From contig CAMAUX010000024.1 in assembly GCA_945861435.1 (NCBI GenBank), positions 1 to 64,000 of the forward strand: 64,000 nucleotides of DNA, given 5' to 3'. The DNA is from Chthoniobacter flavus (lineage in GTDB: Bacteria > Verrucomicrobiota > Verrucomicrobiia > Chthoniobacterales > Chthoniobacteraceae). The translations under genes were made by a program, and so were the position numbers. The notes below the pieces were generated by a model that had not been told where the DNA came from, made no database searches, and worked only from the letters and a program-made list of their open reading frames with translations. Shown here in pieces: positions 2,285-14,206 of the stretch; the first letter of the stretch is position 1; every line of letters begins with the position of its first letter.

Positions 2285-3217
2285 CTAGTTGTTTTCGGGG
2301 AGGCCCTCGGTGTGGCCGAGGTTCTTGACCGGAGCGAAGATGGCCTGGACTTCGGCGAGCAGTTCGCGGTCGAGAGGTTCGGCGGCCCACTGGGCCCATT
2401 TGCGAACGTTGGCGGGGTTGGCGCTTCCGGCGATGGTGGTGGCGATGTCGGGGTGTTCGATGGAGAACTGGAGGGCGAGTTTGGCGATGTCGACGCCCTT
2501 TTGTGCGCAGTGCGCGGCGGCGCGACGGGCGGCGTCCTTGACCTCCTCGGCTTCCTTGAGCCAGGGGGGGAGCGGGGCGTTGGTGAGCAGGCGTGCGGAG
2601 AAGGGGCCGGCGTTCATGGCTCCGACGCCGCGTTGCTTGAGCAATGGGAGGAGATCGTCGGCGAAGCGCGTGTTTTGAAGGGTGTACTGGTTGTAGCTGA
2701 GGACGCAGTCGAGGTCCGTCTGGTCGAGGACGAAGCGGAAGAGCTTCATGGGGTAGCCGGAGATGCCGATGAAACGGACCTTCCCGGCCTGCTGGATTTT
2801 GCGCAGAGCGGGGAGGGTTTCATCGACGATCTGCTGCATGGGGACGAACTCGATGTCGTGGCAGAGGATGATGTCGAGGTGGTCTGTGCCGAGGCGGTGG
2901 AGGGAGACGTCGATGCTTTCCGCGACGCGGCGCGCGGAGAAGTCGAAGTGTTGGAGGTCGTAGCGGCCGAGCTTGGAGCAGAGCGTGTAGCTTTCGCGCG
3001 GGACGCCGCGCAGGGCCATGCCGAGAAGCACCTCGCTCATGCCGCGGCCGTAGAAGGGGGAGGTGTCGATGAAGTTGAGGCCGCAGTCCAGGGCGGTGTG
3101 GACGCTGGCGAGAGCGTCGTCGAGGTTGACTGCGCGGAACTCCTGTCCGAGGGAGGAAGCGCCGAAACTGAGGATGGGGAGGGGAAGGCCGGTGCGGCCG
3201 AGGAGGCGGGTTTGCAT
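2285..3217 (-). CDS. Aldo/keto reductase (L-fucose/L-galactose dehydrogenase-like)
   Basis: A 310-residue aldo/keto reductase TIM barrel. The catalytic tetrad can be followed: D in NFIDTSPFYG with the tyrosine of FYG, K in LCSKLG, and H in ILCHD. The GLPLPILSFGASSLG start and the C-terminal TTIAGSANP phosphate-binding stretch are those of the L-galactose/L-fucose dehydrogenase branch, which oxidises the sugar to its lactone with NAD(P). First gene of the minus-strand set, divergent from the AraC regulator at 3356. With the lactonase downstream it gives the first two steps of an oxidative L-fucose or L-galactose pathway (inference). A fuconate dehydratase and aldolase are not in the window. 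Confidence 0.85.
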   Translation of the reverse strand: MQTRLLGRTGLPLPILSFGASSLGQEFRAVNLDDALASVHTALDCGLNFIDTSPFYGRGMSEVLLGMALRGVPRESYTLCSKLGRYDLQHFDFSARRVAESIDVSLHRLGTDHLDIILCHDIEFVPMQQIVDETLPALRKIQQAGKVRFIGISGYPMKLFRFVLDQTDLDCVLSYNQYTLQNTRFADDLLPLLKQRGVGAMNAGPFSARLLTNAPLPPWLKEAEEVKDAARRAAAHCAQKGVDIAKLALQFSIEHPDIATTIAGSANPANVRKWAQWAAEPLDRELLAEVQAIFAPVKNLGHTEGLPENN

Positions 3218-3355
3218 GGCGAGGTGGATGCTGGTTCTTGCGCTGGGCTTTGCGGCCGGTGGGTGACGGGATGGGCCGCTGTTTCAAGATTGATGGGTTT
3301 GGAGGGGGTTGGGAATTCCTTGGAATTGCCCGCTGCATGTCGATTATTTACCTGC
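3218..3355. promoter_or_regulatory. Divergent intergenic region between aldo/keto reductase and AraC gene
   Basis: This 138-base gap must hold the promoters for both the catabolic genes and their putative regulator. It contains a direct repeat CTGCATG (3333-3339 and 3352-3358, 19-base period, the second copy covering the start codon of the AraC gene) and a GGAATT direct repeat (3312-3317 and 3322-3327). No clear -35/-10 pair was recognised. Direct repeats about two helical turns apart are the usual form of AraC-family sites, so the CTGCATG pair is a candidate. Confidence 0.4.
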
Positions 3356-4264
3356 ATGAAGTCCCCGGGATCGAATGTGGCCGCGTCTGCCAGTGCGCAC
3401 GCTGAAGCGCAGGAGCCTGCATTTGTCTCAAGACAGGTGGCGGAGGCGCGCCGCTACTATCTGGATCTCAAGCCCGGGAAATCTGCCCGGCCGGTTTTGG
3501 TGTGCGGTGGATGTGAGCGGTTGGCGGCGGATTATGTGGTGAGCCGGAAGACGTTTCCGTTCTTCGCGGTGGAGTTTGTGGCGGAGGGTGCGGGCACGCT
3601 GACGTTGATGGGGCGCGAGTACCGTTTGCAGCCCGGGGTGGCGTTTGCGTACGGGCCGGGGGTGCCGCATGTGATTCGCAACGATGCGCGCAGGCCGATG
3701 CGGAAGTATTACGTGGATCTTTCAGGGAAGGGGGTACCGGAGGTGCTGGGGGTGCTCGGGAGTTGGGTGCCGGTGCAGGTGTCCCGTCCGCAGGAGGTGG
3801 TGGAGGTTTTTGAAATGCTGCAGCGGGAGGCGGCTGGAGTCGGGCCCGCGGTGCAGGCGCTGGGGGATGCGTTGGTGCCGGTGCTGCTGCTCAAGATCCA
3901 GCAGCGTGCGCTGGCGTATGGGAGTGCGGAGCCGCGCTCCCAGGCGGCTTACGAGCGTGCGCGCCGGCATTTGGAGAAACACTACCTGCAGTTGCGCACG
4001 GTGGAGGAGGCGGCACGCGCGTGCCATATGACGCCGGTGTATTTGTCGCGTCTCTTTGCGCGCTATGCACACACGGGTGCCTACCAGTTTCTGATCCGCT
4101 TGAAGATGAACCGGGCTGCGGAGCTTTTGCTGGAGGGGGGGATGTTGGTGAAGCAGGTGGCGGCGGAGCTGCGTTTTGCGGACGCATTCCACTTTTCGCG
4201 TGTGTTCAAGCGGGTGTACGGCGTGCCGCCGGAGCAGTTCATCCGGCAGGCGCGGGTGGGTTGA
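3356..4264 (+). CDS. AraC family transcriptional regulator
   Basis: A 302-residue AraC-type regulator: N-terminal cupin-like sensor (around residues 45-130, with the QPGVAFAYGPGVPHVIRND signature) and a C-terminal double helix-turn-helix ending in ADAFHFSRVFKRVYGVPPEQF, the standard AraC C-terminal pattern. The open frame extends far upstream, but everything before 3356 is antisense to the two dehydrogenase genes; ATG at 3356 (MKSPGSN) is the first start clear of them. It is divergent from the aldo/keto reductase and is presumably its regulator, responding to the sugar. Confidence 0.85.
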   Translation: MKSPGSNVAASASAHAEAQEPAFVSRQVAEARRYYLDLKPGKSARPVLVCGGCERLAADYVVSRKTFPFFAVEFVAEGAGTLTLMGREYRLQPGVAFAYGPGVPHVIRNDARRPMRKYYVDLSGKGVPEVLGVLGSWVPVQVSRPQEVVEVFEMLQREAAGVGPAVQALGDALVPVLLLKIQQRALAYGSAEPRSQAAYERARRHLEKHYLQLRTVEEAARACHMTPVYLSRLFARYAHTGAYQFLIRLKMNRAAELLLEGGMLVKQVAAELRFADAFHFSRVFKRVYGVPPEQFIRQARVG

Positions 4265-4362
4265 CGGCGGTGTGAGCTGCGGCCGGAGCGGTTGCGTTGG
4301 CAGGATGGCTTTGATTCAGCGAACTGCGGGCAACGGGGTGGCTGCAGGAGTGGCTTTGGAGC

Positions 4363-5184
4363 TCAGGCTTGGCGGCCAAAGACGCGGTGCAGGTAGGCGA
4401 GGCTTTGGGTGGCGATGGCCTCCGCGCCCTCCTCGAACTTGAAGACCTCGACGGAAACGGTGCCATCGTAGCGGGCATCGCGAAGGGCTTGGGCGATGGG
4501 GTGGAAGTCGACATCGCCGAAGCCCGGTCCCTTGAGGTTGACGTCGTTGGCGTGGAAGTATTCGAAGCAGCCGGCGCTCTCGCGGATGATGTCCGGGGCG
4601 GGCTTGGCTTCGGAGCTCATGGCTTTCACGTCGAGGATGATCGACATGGCGGGACTGGCGAATTGTTTGGCGAAGCGGATGCCCTCGGCGGCGGTGTTGA
4701 CGAAGTTGGTTTCCGAAGGGGCGAGGGGTTCGAAGCAGATGACGACGCCGCGTTGTTCGGCGCGGTGGACGGCGTTGCGGAAGCAGTCGGTGGACCAGTT
4801 CCAGCCCTGCTCGGGGCTGACGTCTGGTGTGAGGCTGCGCTGCTTGGGCGAGCCGACGATGATGCGGGTTCCACCGAGATCCGCGCAGCAATCGACGAGG
4901 TCCACGAAGTAGGCGGCGGTCTTCTGGCGCACGGCCGCGTCGGGATGGGTGAGGTGCATGCCCTCGGCTTGTACGAGGACCCAGTGCAGGCCGGAGATGC
5001 CGATGCGAGCACGTGCTGCGGCCTCGCGGATGCTTGCGCGCTGGGAGGCGGAGATCTCTGTGACGTAGGGGGCGATGGTGAATGGCGCGATCTCGACCTG
5101 GTCATAGCCGACCTCGGCGGCGTAGTGGAAGGTGTCTTCGATGCTCCAGTCTTTGAAGATTTCGTTACAGATGCCGAATTTCAT
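4363..5184 (-). CDS. Sugar phosphate isomerase/epimerase (xylose isomerase-like TIM barrel)
   Basis: A 273-residue member of the xylose isomerase-like TIM-barrel family (COG1082). It begins MKFGICNEIFKDW, has metal-ligand candidates in CFEPLAPSETNFVN, ILDVKAMSSE, FEYFHANDVN and VSVEVFKFEEG (Glu, Asp, His, Glu in the usual order), and ends with the barrel's last strand and helix. Members isomerise or epimerise sugars, keto-sugars or inositol derivatives. It converges on the AraC gene, and its own promoter lies next to the tRNA. Participation in the deoxysugar pathway is likely from context only. Confidence 0.8.
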   Translation of the reverse strand: MKFGICNEIFKDWSIEDTFHYAAEVGYDQVEIAPFTIAPYVTEISASQRASIREAAARARIGISGLHWVLVQAEGMHLTHPDAAVRQKTAAYFVDLVDCCADLGGTRIIVGSPKQRSLTPDVSPEQGWNWSTDCFRNAVHRAEQRGVVICFEPLAPSETNFVNTAAEGIRFAKQFASPAMSIILDVKAMSSEAKPAPDIIRESAGCFEYFHANDVNLKGPGFGDVDFHPIAQALRDARYDGTVSVEVFKFEEGAEAIATQSLAYLHRVFGRQA

Positions 5185-10886: not shown

Positions 10887-11461
10887 TCGGCGGGTGGTAG
10901 GCGGTGGGGGCGCTTCCACTCGCTGGAGTGAAGTGCGGGGGGGCGTTGCTGAGCCCGGTGCTGATCGGTGTGTGCGAGGGGGGGAGAGTGAATGCTGTGA
11001 CGTACCTCGTGTGAATGGTGCGAGTGGTGCGAGTGGTGCGAGTGGTGCGAGTGGTGCGAGTGGTGCGCCTTTTTTGGGGTGCAGTTGAGGGCCGTCATTT
11101 TCAGGCGACTGGGTAACGGCGCGGCTGGCATGGATGGATTCACCTCCCGTTCGCGGTCTCGCCCATGCAGACAAACAAAGGCGGTAGGTGTCCACCACTG
11201 GCCGCATTCACTTCAATCCGCCAACGAAGGATTGCCGCCTCCATCTTTTTCAGGGCAAGGATGGCAAAGTGGCGGGATTGGGAGGGGGTGAGGTTGCAAT
11301 AGACTTTAAGATCTTGGGATCTCGTCGGGCTCTACATCCTCGTGTGATTTCTCCGTATCAGGAATGCTGCAGATCTGGCGGCTGGAAGGGTATTCGTGCG
11401 GATATGCGTGCCGCGGAAAGTTTTTGTCACAAGCGCCCATGAGCCGGGGAACTCTATAGTG
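10887..11461. other. 575-base intergenic region before the sigma factor gene
   Basis: No supported gene. It contains a 9-bp tandem array (separate entry) followed by CTTTTTTGG, and just before the sigma gene the string GGAAAGTTTTTGTCAC (about 11415-11430), which is loosely like an ECF-type promoter. An antisense open frame over the array (Leu-Ala-Pro repeats) and a sense frame (Gly-Ala-Ser repeats) both come from the 9-bp repeat and are not believed. Confidence 0.6.
11014..11067. repeat. 9-bp tandem repeat, five perfect copies plus one degenerate
   Basis: Unit agtggtgcg, perfect at 11023-11067 (five copies), preceded by one variant copy aatggtgcg at 11014-11022. It lies in non-coding DNA downstream of nagB. 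Similar G-rich 9-13 bp arrays occur at 1-130 and 51921-51965. Confidence 0.95.
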
Positions 11462-12955
11462 ATGTCTGCCGTCGCGTTCTCATCTTCCGATGCCGAACTG
11501 CTCTCGCGTTATCTGCGCGAGGGTTGTGAGTCGTCGTTTGCCGCGCTGGTGCAGGCGCACCAGCGGATGGTCCTCGGCACGGCGCTGCGGCGCACGGGCG
11601 ATGCGGAGATGGCCCGCGATGTGGCGCAGCAGGTGTTCGCGCTTCTCGCACGCAAGGCGGTGTGGCTCGCCGGGCGCGAGAGTCTCGCGGGATGGTTGCA
11701 CCGGGCCGCGAGTTATCTTGGGGCGCGGGCTGTGCGCGCAGAAGCGCGGGCGCGAGCGCGTCACGAGGAGTTGGCGCGGGAATCTGCCGGGATGGTGAGC
11801 GACGCGAGGGAGTGGTCGGTGCTCGACGATGAACTCAGCGCGCTCGGCGCGAAGGAACGCGAGGCGTTGGTGCTGCACTACTTCGAAGATCGCGGTTACG
11901 CGGAGATGGCGGCGACACTCGGACTCAGTGAGGCTGCAGCACGCCAGCGCGTATCACGCGGCCTGCGAGCGCTCGGCGATCGGTTGCGGCGGCGTGGCGT
12001 CGGAGCCTCGGCTACGGCGCTGCTTGCCAGTGGTGCGGCACTCCAGACCACGCTTCCCGCGCAGGCGGGGTTGGCGGCGGCGGCGCTTTCGGGCAGCGCC
12101 GTTGTCTCACCGTCCGTGCTTTTTTTCACCACGATCATGTCCCACACACCCGTCAAACTCGCCTTCGCCGCGGTCGCGCTCACCGCGCTGCCGGTCGTGT
12201 TTTTCCAGGAGACCAACGCCCGCCTCACTGCCGAGTGGGCCGCACACGCTTCCTCTTCGGTTACGGCCGTGAGTCCGGCGGCGAGTGCTTCCGCTTCGCC
12301 GACGCCACAGCCCGGCGACGGCGACGTGCTCGCGGCGTGGAATGATCTCCGCGCCGCGCAGAACAGCCGCCACGCGGCCGAGGAAAGGCTGGGGGCGCTC
12401 AAGCGCCAGCTCGATCAGATCAAGACGGAGGTGGTGGTCTCCTACGGTCAGGTTGAAGACCTCGCGCGCCGGGTCGCGGCGAAGGCGCGCGAGTTCCAGA
12501 AATTCGAAGACCTGAAAGACAAGGCGGCCCCCGCAGAGCGCGAACGTCTCGCACGGGAACTCGCGACGAACATGAACGACATCGGCGATCTCTTCGCTTT
12601 TGCGCGCGAGGCGCAGAAGTTGGAGTCCGACCCCGAGAGGGCTGCTCGCTTTTACGCAACGGTATTAGGCGAACTTGCCGGACTCGACGAGGCGGCGCGC
12701 GAACCGGTTGTGCGCGCAGCCCGCGAGCGGTTCGCCGACATGAAACGCGCCGGGCTGACCGCTGCTTCGCGTCCGCAGAGCGACGATTCCGCGTGGATGG
12801 AATCGCGTCGCCGATCCTTTGCTGAACTCGATGCTGCGCTGCTCGCGACCCTGCCGCCGGAGCGGCGCGTGGAGGCAAAGATGTTTGGCGGAGTCATCGA
12901 TCTTACCGGCATTAATTTCATGCCACTGGGTCCTGCGGGGGAGGCTCGGAAATGA
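11462..12955 (+). CDS. ECF-type sigma factor with membrane-anchored C-terminal domain
   Basis: A 497-residue protein. Residues 1-185 are an ECF sigma factor: sigma2 region (FAALVQAHQRMVLGTALRRTGD, then AEMARDVAQQVFALLARK) and sigma4 region (LGAKEREALVLHYFEDRGYAEMAATLGLSEAAARQRVSRGLR). After a low-complexity linker there is one membrane helix (about residues 230-250, KLAFAAVALTALPVVFF), then a charged coiled-coil-like stretch and a domain to the end. The sigma part is therefore fused to its own sensor or tether, which would sit outside the membrane. ATG 11462 was chosen with GGGGAA upstream; an earlier in-frame start at 11396 lacks sigma similarity. Its stop overlaps the next start (ATGA), whose product resembles this C-terminal domain. 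Confidence 0.82.
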   Translation: MSAVAFSSSDAELLSRYLREGCESSFAALVQAHQRMVLGTALRRTGDAEMARDVAQQVFALLARKAVWLAGRESLAGWLHRAASYLGARAVRAEARARARHEELARESAGMVSDAREWSVLDDELSALGAKEREALVLHYFEDRGYAEMAATLGLSEAAARQRVSRGLRALGDRLRRRGVGASATALLASGAALQTTLPAQAGLAAAALSGSAVVSPSVLFFTTIMSHTPVKLAFAAVALTALPVVFFQETNARLTAEWAAHASSSVTAVSPAASASASPTPQPGDGDVLAAWNDLRAAQNSRHAAEERLGALKRQLDQIKTEVVVSYGQVEDLARRVAAKAREFQKFEDLKDKAAPAERERLARELATNMNDIGDLFAFAREAQKLESDPERAARFYATVLGELAGLDEAAREPVVRAARERFADMKRAGLTAASRPQSDDSAWMESRRRSFAELDAALLATLPPERRVEAKMFGGVIDLTGINFMPLGPAGEARK

Positions 12956-13827
12956 AATCCACGCGCGGGCTTGGTCCGCTCTGGCTGTGGCCGGTGACAC
13001 TCGGCGTCGTCGTGTGGCTCGCGCGGGCCGGCTGGCACCTGCGGAGCGAAAACGCAGCACTGCGTGCTTCCGTTGCCATGGCGGGTAAGGTCGGTGCTTC
13101 ACCGGGGGCGCGAGCGATGCCCGAGGCGGTGAACGGGCAGCCAGAGGGAACGCTTCGTGCCGAAGAATTGCGTGCTGAAACGCGGCGCGAAATTGCCGCC
13201 CGCGAAGCTGCCGAAGGAAAAATTGCCGAACTCGAATCTCGCCTGCCCACGCGTGACGGCGATGTGGTCGCGTCCTTCGGGCGCATCGAACAAATGGGGC
13301 AGCGGGCGGGGAAGGGCTTGATGGTCCTTGCGCGGCAGGTCGCTGCGCAGATCGCCGCGAAAAAACCCGGCGGAAAGCCGGTGACCGCTATGACTGCAGA
13401 CGAGGAAGCCGGGTTCGCGGAATTTTTCGCTCAACTCGGCGAACTGCGCGCCGTGGAAAACGATCCGCGCGAGATCGCGCGCTTCCAAGCCGCGACGCTG
13501 CGCGAAGTTTTCGGCCTCGACGACGCGACGGCGGGACGTGTGAGCGCTTTCCTCGAGAGCGAATTCGCGCGGCTCAAGACGCAGCAGCTCATCGCAAACT
13601 TTCGTCCCGGAAATGAGCCGGGGGATTGGGACCGACGCCGCGACGCAGCGATGACCGAACTGGCCGCTCGGCTGCGACCAGTGCTTCCTGCGAATCACGC
13701 GCAGCTCCCGCTGCTTCCCGGCATCCTGAGTCTCGGGGGTGGCCTGCGCACGGAGGTGAAGTTGAACGCCGACGGCCACGGCTCGGTGAATGCGACACTG
13801 CCGCTTTTCCCCAACGGGATGCTGTAG
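12952..13827 (+). CDS. Membrane-anchored protein related to the sigma factor's C-terminal domain
   Basis: A 291-residue protein with one N-terminal membrane helix (about residues 7-24), a charged helical stretch, and a C-terminal domain. Aligned by eye with the preceding gene, the two share GDVVASFGRIE versus EVVVSYGQVE, VENDPREIARFQAATLREVFGLD versus LESDPERAARFYATVLGELAGLD, and a later W-x-x-RR then ELAARLRPVLP versus ELDAALLATLP pattern. I conclude they are paralogous domains. It is coupled to the sigma gene by a four-base overlap and so is a candidate partner or modulator of it. No known family was recognised. Confidence 0.7.
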   Translation: MKSTRGLGPLWLWPVTLGVVVWLARAGWHLRSENAALRASVAMAGKVGASPGARAMPEAVNGQPEGTLRAEELRAETRREIAAREAAEGKIAELESRLPTRDGDVVASFGRIEQMGQRAGKGLMVLARQVAAQIAAKKPGGKPVTAMTADEEAGFAEFFAQLGELRAVENDPREIARFQAATLREVFGLDDATAGRVSAFLESEFARLKTQQLIANFRPGNEPGDWDRRRDAAMTELAARLRPVLPANHAQLPLLPGILSLGGGLRTEVKLNADGHGSVNATLPLFPNGML

Positions 13828-13952
13828 GATTTAAGATCGCGGAGTGGCGCCCCGTTGAGGGGACGGCGTAGCACTCATTTCACGACCCGGAAATCCAGGC
13901 GGCGTTTCCAAGCGGAACACGCCCTGTAGGTCTCGGGTGAAGTGCGGATCCG

Positions 13953-13973: not shown

Positions 13974-14030
13974 TAAGGAGCAGCAGCCACGGTCTTGGTG
14001 ACACAGGGATGGTCGCGACGGAGGGGGTGG

Positions 14031-14113
14031 CTCCTGAGTTAGGACTCGAATCTACGACCAATCGGTTAATCCCGACGAAATCGGGAATCGCTCAACCACT
14101 GAGCTACTCCCGA
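14031..14113 (-). pseudogene. Broken tRNA-Asn copy with a replaced anticodon arm
   Basis: An 83-base copy of the tRNA-Asn gene next to it (14135-14206). The D arm and the stretch after the anticodon (TTAACCGATTGGTC) are kept, but the bases that should hold the GTT anticodon are replaced by a 17-base perfect hairpin, TCCCGATTTCGTCGGGA. Acceptor pairs 3 and 4 (G-G, G-A) and both outer T-stem pairs are mismatched. Read as an anticodon arm, the new hairpin has five pairs, a seven-base loop and TTC at positions 34-36, but it leaves a 14-base variable region. Most likely non-functional. Confidence 0.8.
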
Positions 14114-14134
14114 GCAACCTCTCCCGGAGGATGG

Positions 14135-14206
14135 CTCCTGAGGTAGGACTCGAACCTACGACCAATCGGTTAACAGCCGATCGCTCTACCACTGAGCTAC
14201 TCAGGA
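14135..14206 (-). tRNA. tRNA-Asn (anticodon GTT)
   Basis: A 72-base cloverleaf: acceptor TCCTGAG/CTCAGGA, D arm GCTC/GAGC, anticodon stem ATCGG/CCGAT with loop CTGTTAA, T arm GTAGG/CCTAC, discriminator G. The 3' flank continues CCA on the minus strand (ggagcca), so CCA may be encoded. The anticodon and discriminator fit Asn. It is followed on the same strand by the broken copy. Confidence 0.96.

Follow-up and report, generated by a model that had tools for sequence, protein, structure and literature searches.

Signals from the envelope usually reach ECF sigma factors by way of a separate anti-sigma factor, and the locus described here raises the question of how a sigma factor might be controlled that carries its own membrane segment and C-terminal domain and is followed by a gene for a free, membrane-anchored copy of that domain. 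The two genes lie on the forward strand of a 64,000-nucleotide stretch of a Chthoniobacter flavus contig (CAMAUX010000024.1, assembly GCA_945861435.1), here called the window. An original prediction, made from the letters of the window, held that they form a self-contained signaling pair in which the sigma factor is tethered to the membrane and its outer domain may pair with the free one, in place of a classical anti-sigma factor. We consider this proposal plausible, with more in its favor than the letters by themselves could show, and we lean toward viewing the two genes as one envelope-to-transcription signaling unit, in which a membrane-held sigma factor and a paralogous anchored outer domain would likely form a hetero-oligomer. 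The wider pattern of fused and free domains to which the pair belongs is of more interest than the single pair.

The sigma gene, its partner and their surroundings

The sigma gene (11462..12955, + strand) is an open reading frame of 497 aa that encodes a sigma factor fused to a linker, a membrane segment, and a helical domain. Sigma region 2 (residues 29-96; 11546..11749, +) and sigma region 4 (residues 121-171; 11822..11974, +) are matched by the Pfam models PF04542 (Sigma70_r2; 2.6e-6) and PF08281 (Sigma70_r4_2; 4.5e-12), both above their gathering scores, and no region 3 model is among the Pfam matches listed; the NCBIfam sigma70-ECF model gives 50.2 bits, above its cut-off of 42.9. By these matches, with regions 2 and 4 but not region 3, the protein is classed as an ECF-type sigma factor. 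Region 4 is followed by an Ala-rich linker (11996..12148, +), which the A8 alignment and the class search described below find to be common to many fused sigma factors of the class, then by a predicted membrane segment (residues 230-248; 12149..12205, +; hydropathy 1.99), and then by a C-terminal helical domain that opens with a coiled stretch (residues 293-490; 12338..12931, +), as supported by its profile match to the free protein and by the helices of an AF2 model of low overall confidence. The predicted membrane-spanning extension consists of this single strong segment and a 249-residue tail; a second, weaker hydrophobic stretch begins at residue 208 (about 208-226; hydropathy 1.54). An alternative upstream start at 11396 is open, but in genome G012 the alignment of the orthologue begins at ATG 11462. 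The architecture first proposed for this frame, a 497-aa sigma factor with a membrane helix and a C-terminal domain, is borne out by Pfam, NCBIfam, and hydropathy.

The next gene (12952..13827, +) overlaps the first by an ATGA stop/start (12952..12955, +), an offset of -4 that is also found in L012, L013, and L091. It encodes a protein of 291 aa, without a Pfam or NCBIfam family, that has a predicted membrane anchor at residues 6-24 (12967..13023, +; hydropathy 1.57) and a coiled stretch plus helical domain at residues 70-263 (13159..13740, +), the latter assigned from an AF2 model, profile comparison, and shuffling. The open reading frame and this segment agree with the original description of an overlapping gene for a membrane-anchored protein. 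The proposed absence of a classical anti-sigma factor from the pair is likewise supported, in that neither protein matches an anti-sigma family in Pfam or NCBIfam; in the sigma extension, no zinc-finger or FecR-type anti-sigma domain was found at E ≤ 1 in Pfam or among the 25 of 70 NCBIfam matches listed.

Upstream of the unit, a conserved block (11410..11461, +) that aligns in G012 and G016, while sequence farther upstream does not, is a promoter or leader candidate. It contains TTTTTGTCACA (11421-11431, +), an 11-mer that occurs once in its own genome and that we take to resemble the -35 element of ECF41; the TGTCACA is conserved in position in G012 and G016. Upstream of 11 other sigma open reading frames, only L089 has even a shorter match; given this and the single occurrence in its own genome, a regulon defined by the motif was dropped as a candidate. 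A perfect nine-base tandem repeat of about 5.8 copies also lies upstream of the unit, at 11016-11067. On the other side, a degenerate tRNA-Asn copy (14028..14109, - strand), possibly the trace of an insertion, adjoins an intact tRNA-Asn (14132-14206). The order of LplA, ParB, M28 peptidase, and tRNA-Asn is kept in three congeners, and gene content beyond it differs; because gene order is conserved on one side of the tRNA-Asn and different on the other, the comparison suggests that the site at 14028-14206 is an insertion hot spot.

Homology of the fused and free domains

The motifs that first drew attention to the two C-terminal parts are present in both proteins (GDVVASFGRIE/TEVVVSYGQVE, ENDPREIARF/ESDPERAARF, and LREVFGLD/LGELAGLD). 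BLASTP aligns the sigma factor with its partner at E 7e-13 and 27% identity over 245 columns, and a profile comparison of the two domains with hhalign, four fused against five free, was significant (probability 98.2, E 5.1e-14, 180 columns), in keeping with the claim that the pair shares a domain. The sigma-partner score of 166 compares with at most 57 for the 36 other open reading frames of the window and lies 15 SD above 1000 local shuffles. When the coiled part is removed, the score still lies at 12.4 SD, whereas values of only 4 SD and 0.9 SD were obtained for the coiled stretch alone and for the membrane/spacer part, respectively (local shuffles), which places the homology in the predicted helical domain (about residues 331-490 of the sigma factor and 111-263 of the partner), outside the membrane part. 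As judged from these alignments, the likeness of the fused and free domains is real and beyond chance. A search of its own genome with the partner as query returned only the partner itself and the sigma factor's domain. An orphan free copy in G010 matches the fused profile (94.9, E 4.6e-8), and a fused sigma factor of another type gave no match to the window-family profile.

An AF2 model of the partner is nearly all helical at residues 112-263, with pLDDT near 90 at about 171-210 and a pTM of only 0.55, and that of the sigma factor has helices in the C-terminal domain at low overall confidence (pTM 0.34). The domain could be assigned neither to a Pfam family nor to a solved fold: Pfam and NCBIfam gave nothing above cut-off for the C-terminal part of either protein, Foldseek returned nothing at E ≤ 0.001, and the best hit of a PDB-sequence profile search had an E value of only 0.026. 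Among the best 50 VIA-align matches listed there is no Spy/CpxP/CnrX entry, and a Pfam scan of 10 family members gave weak matches only, mostly coiled-coil-like, with no Spy/CpxP/CnrX-type family. The best VIA-align Z, 6.0 for apolipoprotein N-acyltransferase (104 residues), was not accepted as a fold assignment; it falls in a range that the tool's own note describes as common for helical models.

Fused and free copies of the window family form separate groups, the fused ones being 74 to 79% and the free ones 71 to 82% identical to the window's copy, compared with ∼27% between groups, so the retention of both predates the divergence of these copies. A like grouping is seen in L171 and L183, whose domain of roughly 600 residues is 36% and 38% identical within groups and 26 to 30% between them, and, more weakly, in L170 and L187. 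For L179 and L188, the two cognate copies of L179 are closest to each other (41%), pointing to their origin by later duplication. Such repeated duplication with retention of the copies argues for a joint function.

Fused sigma factors and free partners across the class

Sigma factors with the linker and membrane segment of the window's protein are common in the class, as judged by a search with A8, a profile that covers region 4, the linker, and the membrane segment. At E ≤ 1e-8 it matched 214 of 384 genomes, a count whose weak end will include ordinary sigma factors, and the open frames that hold the top matches listed (E ≤ 2.7e-32) are 311 to 1207 codons long. Each of the 72 scaffold open reading frames in our first sets extends at least 100 residues beyond region 4. 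The Pfam domains found C-terminally on this scaffold include GH48 (3e-298), alpha-2-macroglobulin, and DUF3738, together with RCC1, carboxypeptidase-regulatory-like, and TonB_C domains; most other C-terminal parts have no Pfam match. GH48, alpha-2-macroglobulin, and TonB_C domains normally work outside the cytoplasm.

Several individual loci illustrate the range of these proteins. In G035, a sigma factor is fused via a membrane segment to a complete GH48 domain (L080 373-3081), and in G021, a genome of the same genus, a separate 193-aa sigma factor, identified by eye, is followed by a FecR-type protein that ends in GH48 (L267 811-4133; FecR 2.1e-9, GH48 1.2e-276). A frame of 1956 residues in G439, running to the contig end, has N-terminal sigma regions followed by the alpha-2-macroglobulin domains MG2 and A2M (L086 384-6254). 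Ten fused sigma open reading frames occur in two stretches (L228 and L229) within about 43 kb of contig 102 of G797. In many linkers, including those of L156, L157, and L160, an ISANAVQAAP-like stretch right after region 4 resembles a signal-peptide cleavage site.

We counted a downstream gene as close if it starts within -60 to +100 of the sigma stop; the partner picker takes the longest open reading frame and sometimes picks the wrong frame. Of the 72 sigma open reading frames in the first sets, 41 have a close downstream gene, 29 have none, and 2 are at a contig edge. An N-terminal membrane segment is present in 23 of the 41 neighbors, and 12 of these 23, four window-family loci included, match the C-terminal domain of their own sigma factor at E ≤ 1e-6; among non-cognate combinations, 14 of 908 matched, several within one family. 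In a control of adjacent non-sigma pairs from the same loci, 3 of 97 were homologous at E ≤ 1e-6, and 25 of 97 had a downstream gene with an N-terminal membrane segment. The manner of sampling bears on these figures. The first batch of loci was chosen by score, and its proportion of homologous neighbors (3 of 24) does not clearly differ from the control (3 of 97; p 0.09); the later loci, 6 of whose 11 open reading frames with a close downstream gene have a homologous neighbor, were selected once pairs had come to light in family f17 and belong mostly to f17 and f15.

A further set was drawn from the matches listed for f17, the best-sampled family, roughly in order of score and with neighbors merged, giving 40 regions that include the GH48 locus L267. 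Its 55 open reading frames left 50 evaluable after removal of one short frame, two at edges, and two whose next gene is a sigma gene; 37 of the 50 have a close downstream gene and 13 have none. An N-terminal membrane segment is found in 25 of these 37 downstream genes, compared with 25 of 97 in the control (p 1.6e-5), and 9 of the 37 are homologous to the sigma factor's C-terminal domain over at least 85 columns, compared with 3 of 97 (p 0.0005); both p values are optimistic because many of the open reading frames come from one genome (18 of 55 from G797). Cognate matches in the coiled part of L168, L230, L232, and L236 were excluded from the 85-column count. Eight of the 25 neighbors with a membrane segment share the -4 overlap. 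Single-linkage clustering (E ≤ 1e-6, at least 85 columns) yielded eight clusters with both fused and free members, one of which joins TonB_C-type sigma factors and their partners; in an earlier clustering, the TonB_C-type partner family also matched the fused domains of L181 and L182. On these comparisons, the fused/free arrangement recurs with several unrelated domains. One pair, in L194 of G613 (sigma gene at 2719-4422 and its downstream neighbor), has several LTxxQ-like motifs in each of the fused and free copies, which we take to recall the Spy/CpxP proteins.

Inheritance, topology and relation to known systems

The window family itself is sparsely distributed, with matches in 5 of 57 relatives searched and in 7 of 213 genomes across the order, one of them weak (G018, E 6.5e-4). 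In a phylum sample, 4 of 387 genomes matched, namely the pair's own genome and three with weak matches (E 6e-5 to 9e-4) that we judged to be chance, having read the open reading frames of L016 and L017. The overlapping pair is present in the window, G012, G016, and G438, the sigma orthologues of the last three being 78 to 79% identical to the window's. It is intact in G012 and G016, whereas the G438 sigma part is interrupted by one in-frame stop and cut off within the gene by the contig end. The copy in G006 is decayed, and the pair is absent from three congeners. The remnant in G006 (L014 1-2086) has an upstream flank ∼96% identical to that of G012 and lies beside a gene that is presumably Fic-like. 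G012 also has an additional copy of the free partner (L012 182-1988), truncated at its N terminus, which adjoins an open reading frame that we take to be a Y1-type (REP-associated) transposase.

The block common to the genomes runs from 11410/11413 to 13842, its last segment (13828..13842, +) ending where blastn with G012 and G438 stops, and the flanks differ except for the upstream flank common to G012 and G006. Synonymous differences between the window and the g4 genomes are 0.32-0.40 in the sigma core and 0.34-0.37 in both domains, compared with 0.64-0.70 in ParB, and between G012 and G438 they are 0.06-0.19 over the pair, compared with 0.73 for ParB; as a guide to transfer, the comparison is limited by its reliance on a single gene. 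Because of these low synonymous differences relative to ParB, the congeners without the pair, and the differing flanks, the sigma gene and its partner apparently move sideways as one unit. Relatives of the pair were found neither in viral contigs nor in plasmids. Both outer domains are under purifying selection, with dN/dS between the window and the three other genomes of 0.27-0.32 (fused) and 0.20-0.30 (free), next to 0.13-0.21 for the sigma core.

The description of the pair as self-contained stands in part: the genes overlap, are co-inherited in the window, G012, G016, and G438, and are under purifying selection, but G010 has a lone free copy, with no sigma gene within the 15 kb read around it, and L192 has a related fused sigma factor with no free copy on the stretch read. 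The same lone copies, together with the 29 of 72 fused sigma factors that lack a close downstream gene, favor a reading in which the fused sigma factor acts by itself. Its outer domain would work alone or as a homodimer, release would come by regulated proteolysis as for IutY, and the partner would be a diverged tandem duplicate that serves the envelope in some other way and is perhaps controlled by the sigma factor; proteolytic release of a fused sigma factor is described in the portion of PMC8999054 consulted. We regard this as rather unlikely, since the overlap and both copies have survived what appears to be sideways transfer and since fused/free pairs occur with several unrelated domains.

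A different arrangement in the membrane would also alter the picture. Charge bias around the membrane segment speaks for C-terminal export in 25 of 72 sigma factors and against it in 19, which clearly favors neither topology, and the weaker hydrophobic stretch (1.54) at about 208-226 could form a hairpin with 230-248, so that the C-terminal domain would stay in the cytoplasm as a built-in anti-sigma lid. This seems distinctly improbable to us, given that the two stretches are only a few residues apart, that the free homologue has a single N-terminal anchor, and that the same scaffold carries GH48, alpha-2-macroglobulin, and TonB_C domains. This last observation is our main argument that the C-terminal part of the sigma factor probably lies outside the cytoplasm; the position of GH48 on a FecR-type anti-sigma protein in G021 and on the sigma factor itself in G035 is a further one. 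A reading of the locus as chiefly a mobile two-gene cassette, with the free copy a by-product that has no regulatory role, is very improbable, given that both domains are under purifying selection and that the arrangement recurs widely, even with the signs of transfer, the decayed copy in G006, the truncated extra partner in G012, and the in-frame stop in G438.

The reading we prefer, a single signaling unit made of both proteins, could work as follows, and we infer its topology, pairing, signal, and activation step alike. A single helix would keep the ECF sigma factor at the inner membrane and place its helical C-terminal domain outside the cytoplasm, and the translationally coupled partner, with a membrane anchor of its own, would present a paralogous outer domain. 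Most likely the two outer domains would assemble into a hetero-oligomer, which would sense a stimulus or protect the fused domain from proteolysis, and a change in this outer complex would free or activate the sigma factor through cleavage near the membrane or through a change in conformation. At the level of the class, we put at slightly short of even the prospect that these loci represent a widespread, undescribed verrucomicrobial signaling class of membrane-spanning sigma factors and co-encoded anchored paralogues, with domains swapping among sigma factor, anti-sigma factor, and partner. We found no description of the fused-sigma/free-partner arrangement in the literature searched, which did not cover the 2021 ECF classification. 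If the reading is true, it would add a signaling architecture in which an ECF sigma factor is combined with ToxR/ToxS logic, offer a rule by which sensor-partner pairs can be recognized in genomes, and open regulation in little-studied verrucomicrobia to testing.

Three kinds of known system invite comparison. As in the FecI/FecR type, two genes would link the envelope to RNA polymerase, but here the sigma factor itself appears to span the membrane; the pair in G021, a FecI/FecR-type sigma factor with a FecR-GH48 protein, uses the outer domain that G035 fuses to its sigma factor, and this exchange of GH48 between sigma factor and FecR-type anti-sigma factor suggests how such systems arise. IutY, ECF48, ECF52, and ECF53 are ECF sigma factors with membrane-spanning C-terminal extensions, and IutY is a fused sigma factor reported to be released by proteolysis (PMC8999054, in the portion consulted). 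The window's protein resembles them in being an ECF sigma factor fused via a membrane helix to an extension and differs from them, as that portion of the paper presents them, in having no detected zinc-finger or FecR-type anti-sigma part and in being followed by a second gene that carries a free copy of its outer domain.

The closest parallel in arrangement is with the co-component systems VtrA/VtrC, ToxR/ToxS, and TcpP/TcpH, in which, according to the sections of PMC9214523 consulted, a transcription factor that spans the membrane pairs, through its outer part, with a membrane-anchored protein encoded beside it to give a heterodimer. Common to both, as far as those sections go, are two adjacent, often overlapping genes whose products both have outer domains, a second gene that overlaps the first (by ATGA here, and in three further genomes) and encodes a single N-terminal membrane segment, and outer parts that change faster than the output part. 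The differences, within the same portion of that paper, are that the output is an ECF sigma factor rather than a CadC-like winged helix, that the two outer domains of the window pair are homologous to each other, that the window model, which is of low confidence (pTM 0.55), is helical rather than an alpha-beta sandwich plus a lipocalin-like barrel, and that the window pair comes from another phylum; the word "sigma" is absent from the main text of PMC9214523. Because its output is a sigma factor and its outer domains are paralogues, the window pair falls outside the co-component superfamily, but it may work likewise, and it appears best read as a sigma-factor counterpart of the ToxR/ToxS-type co-component systems.
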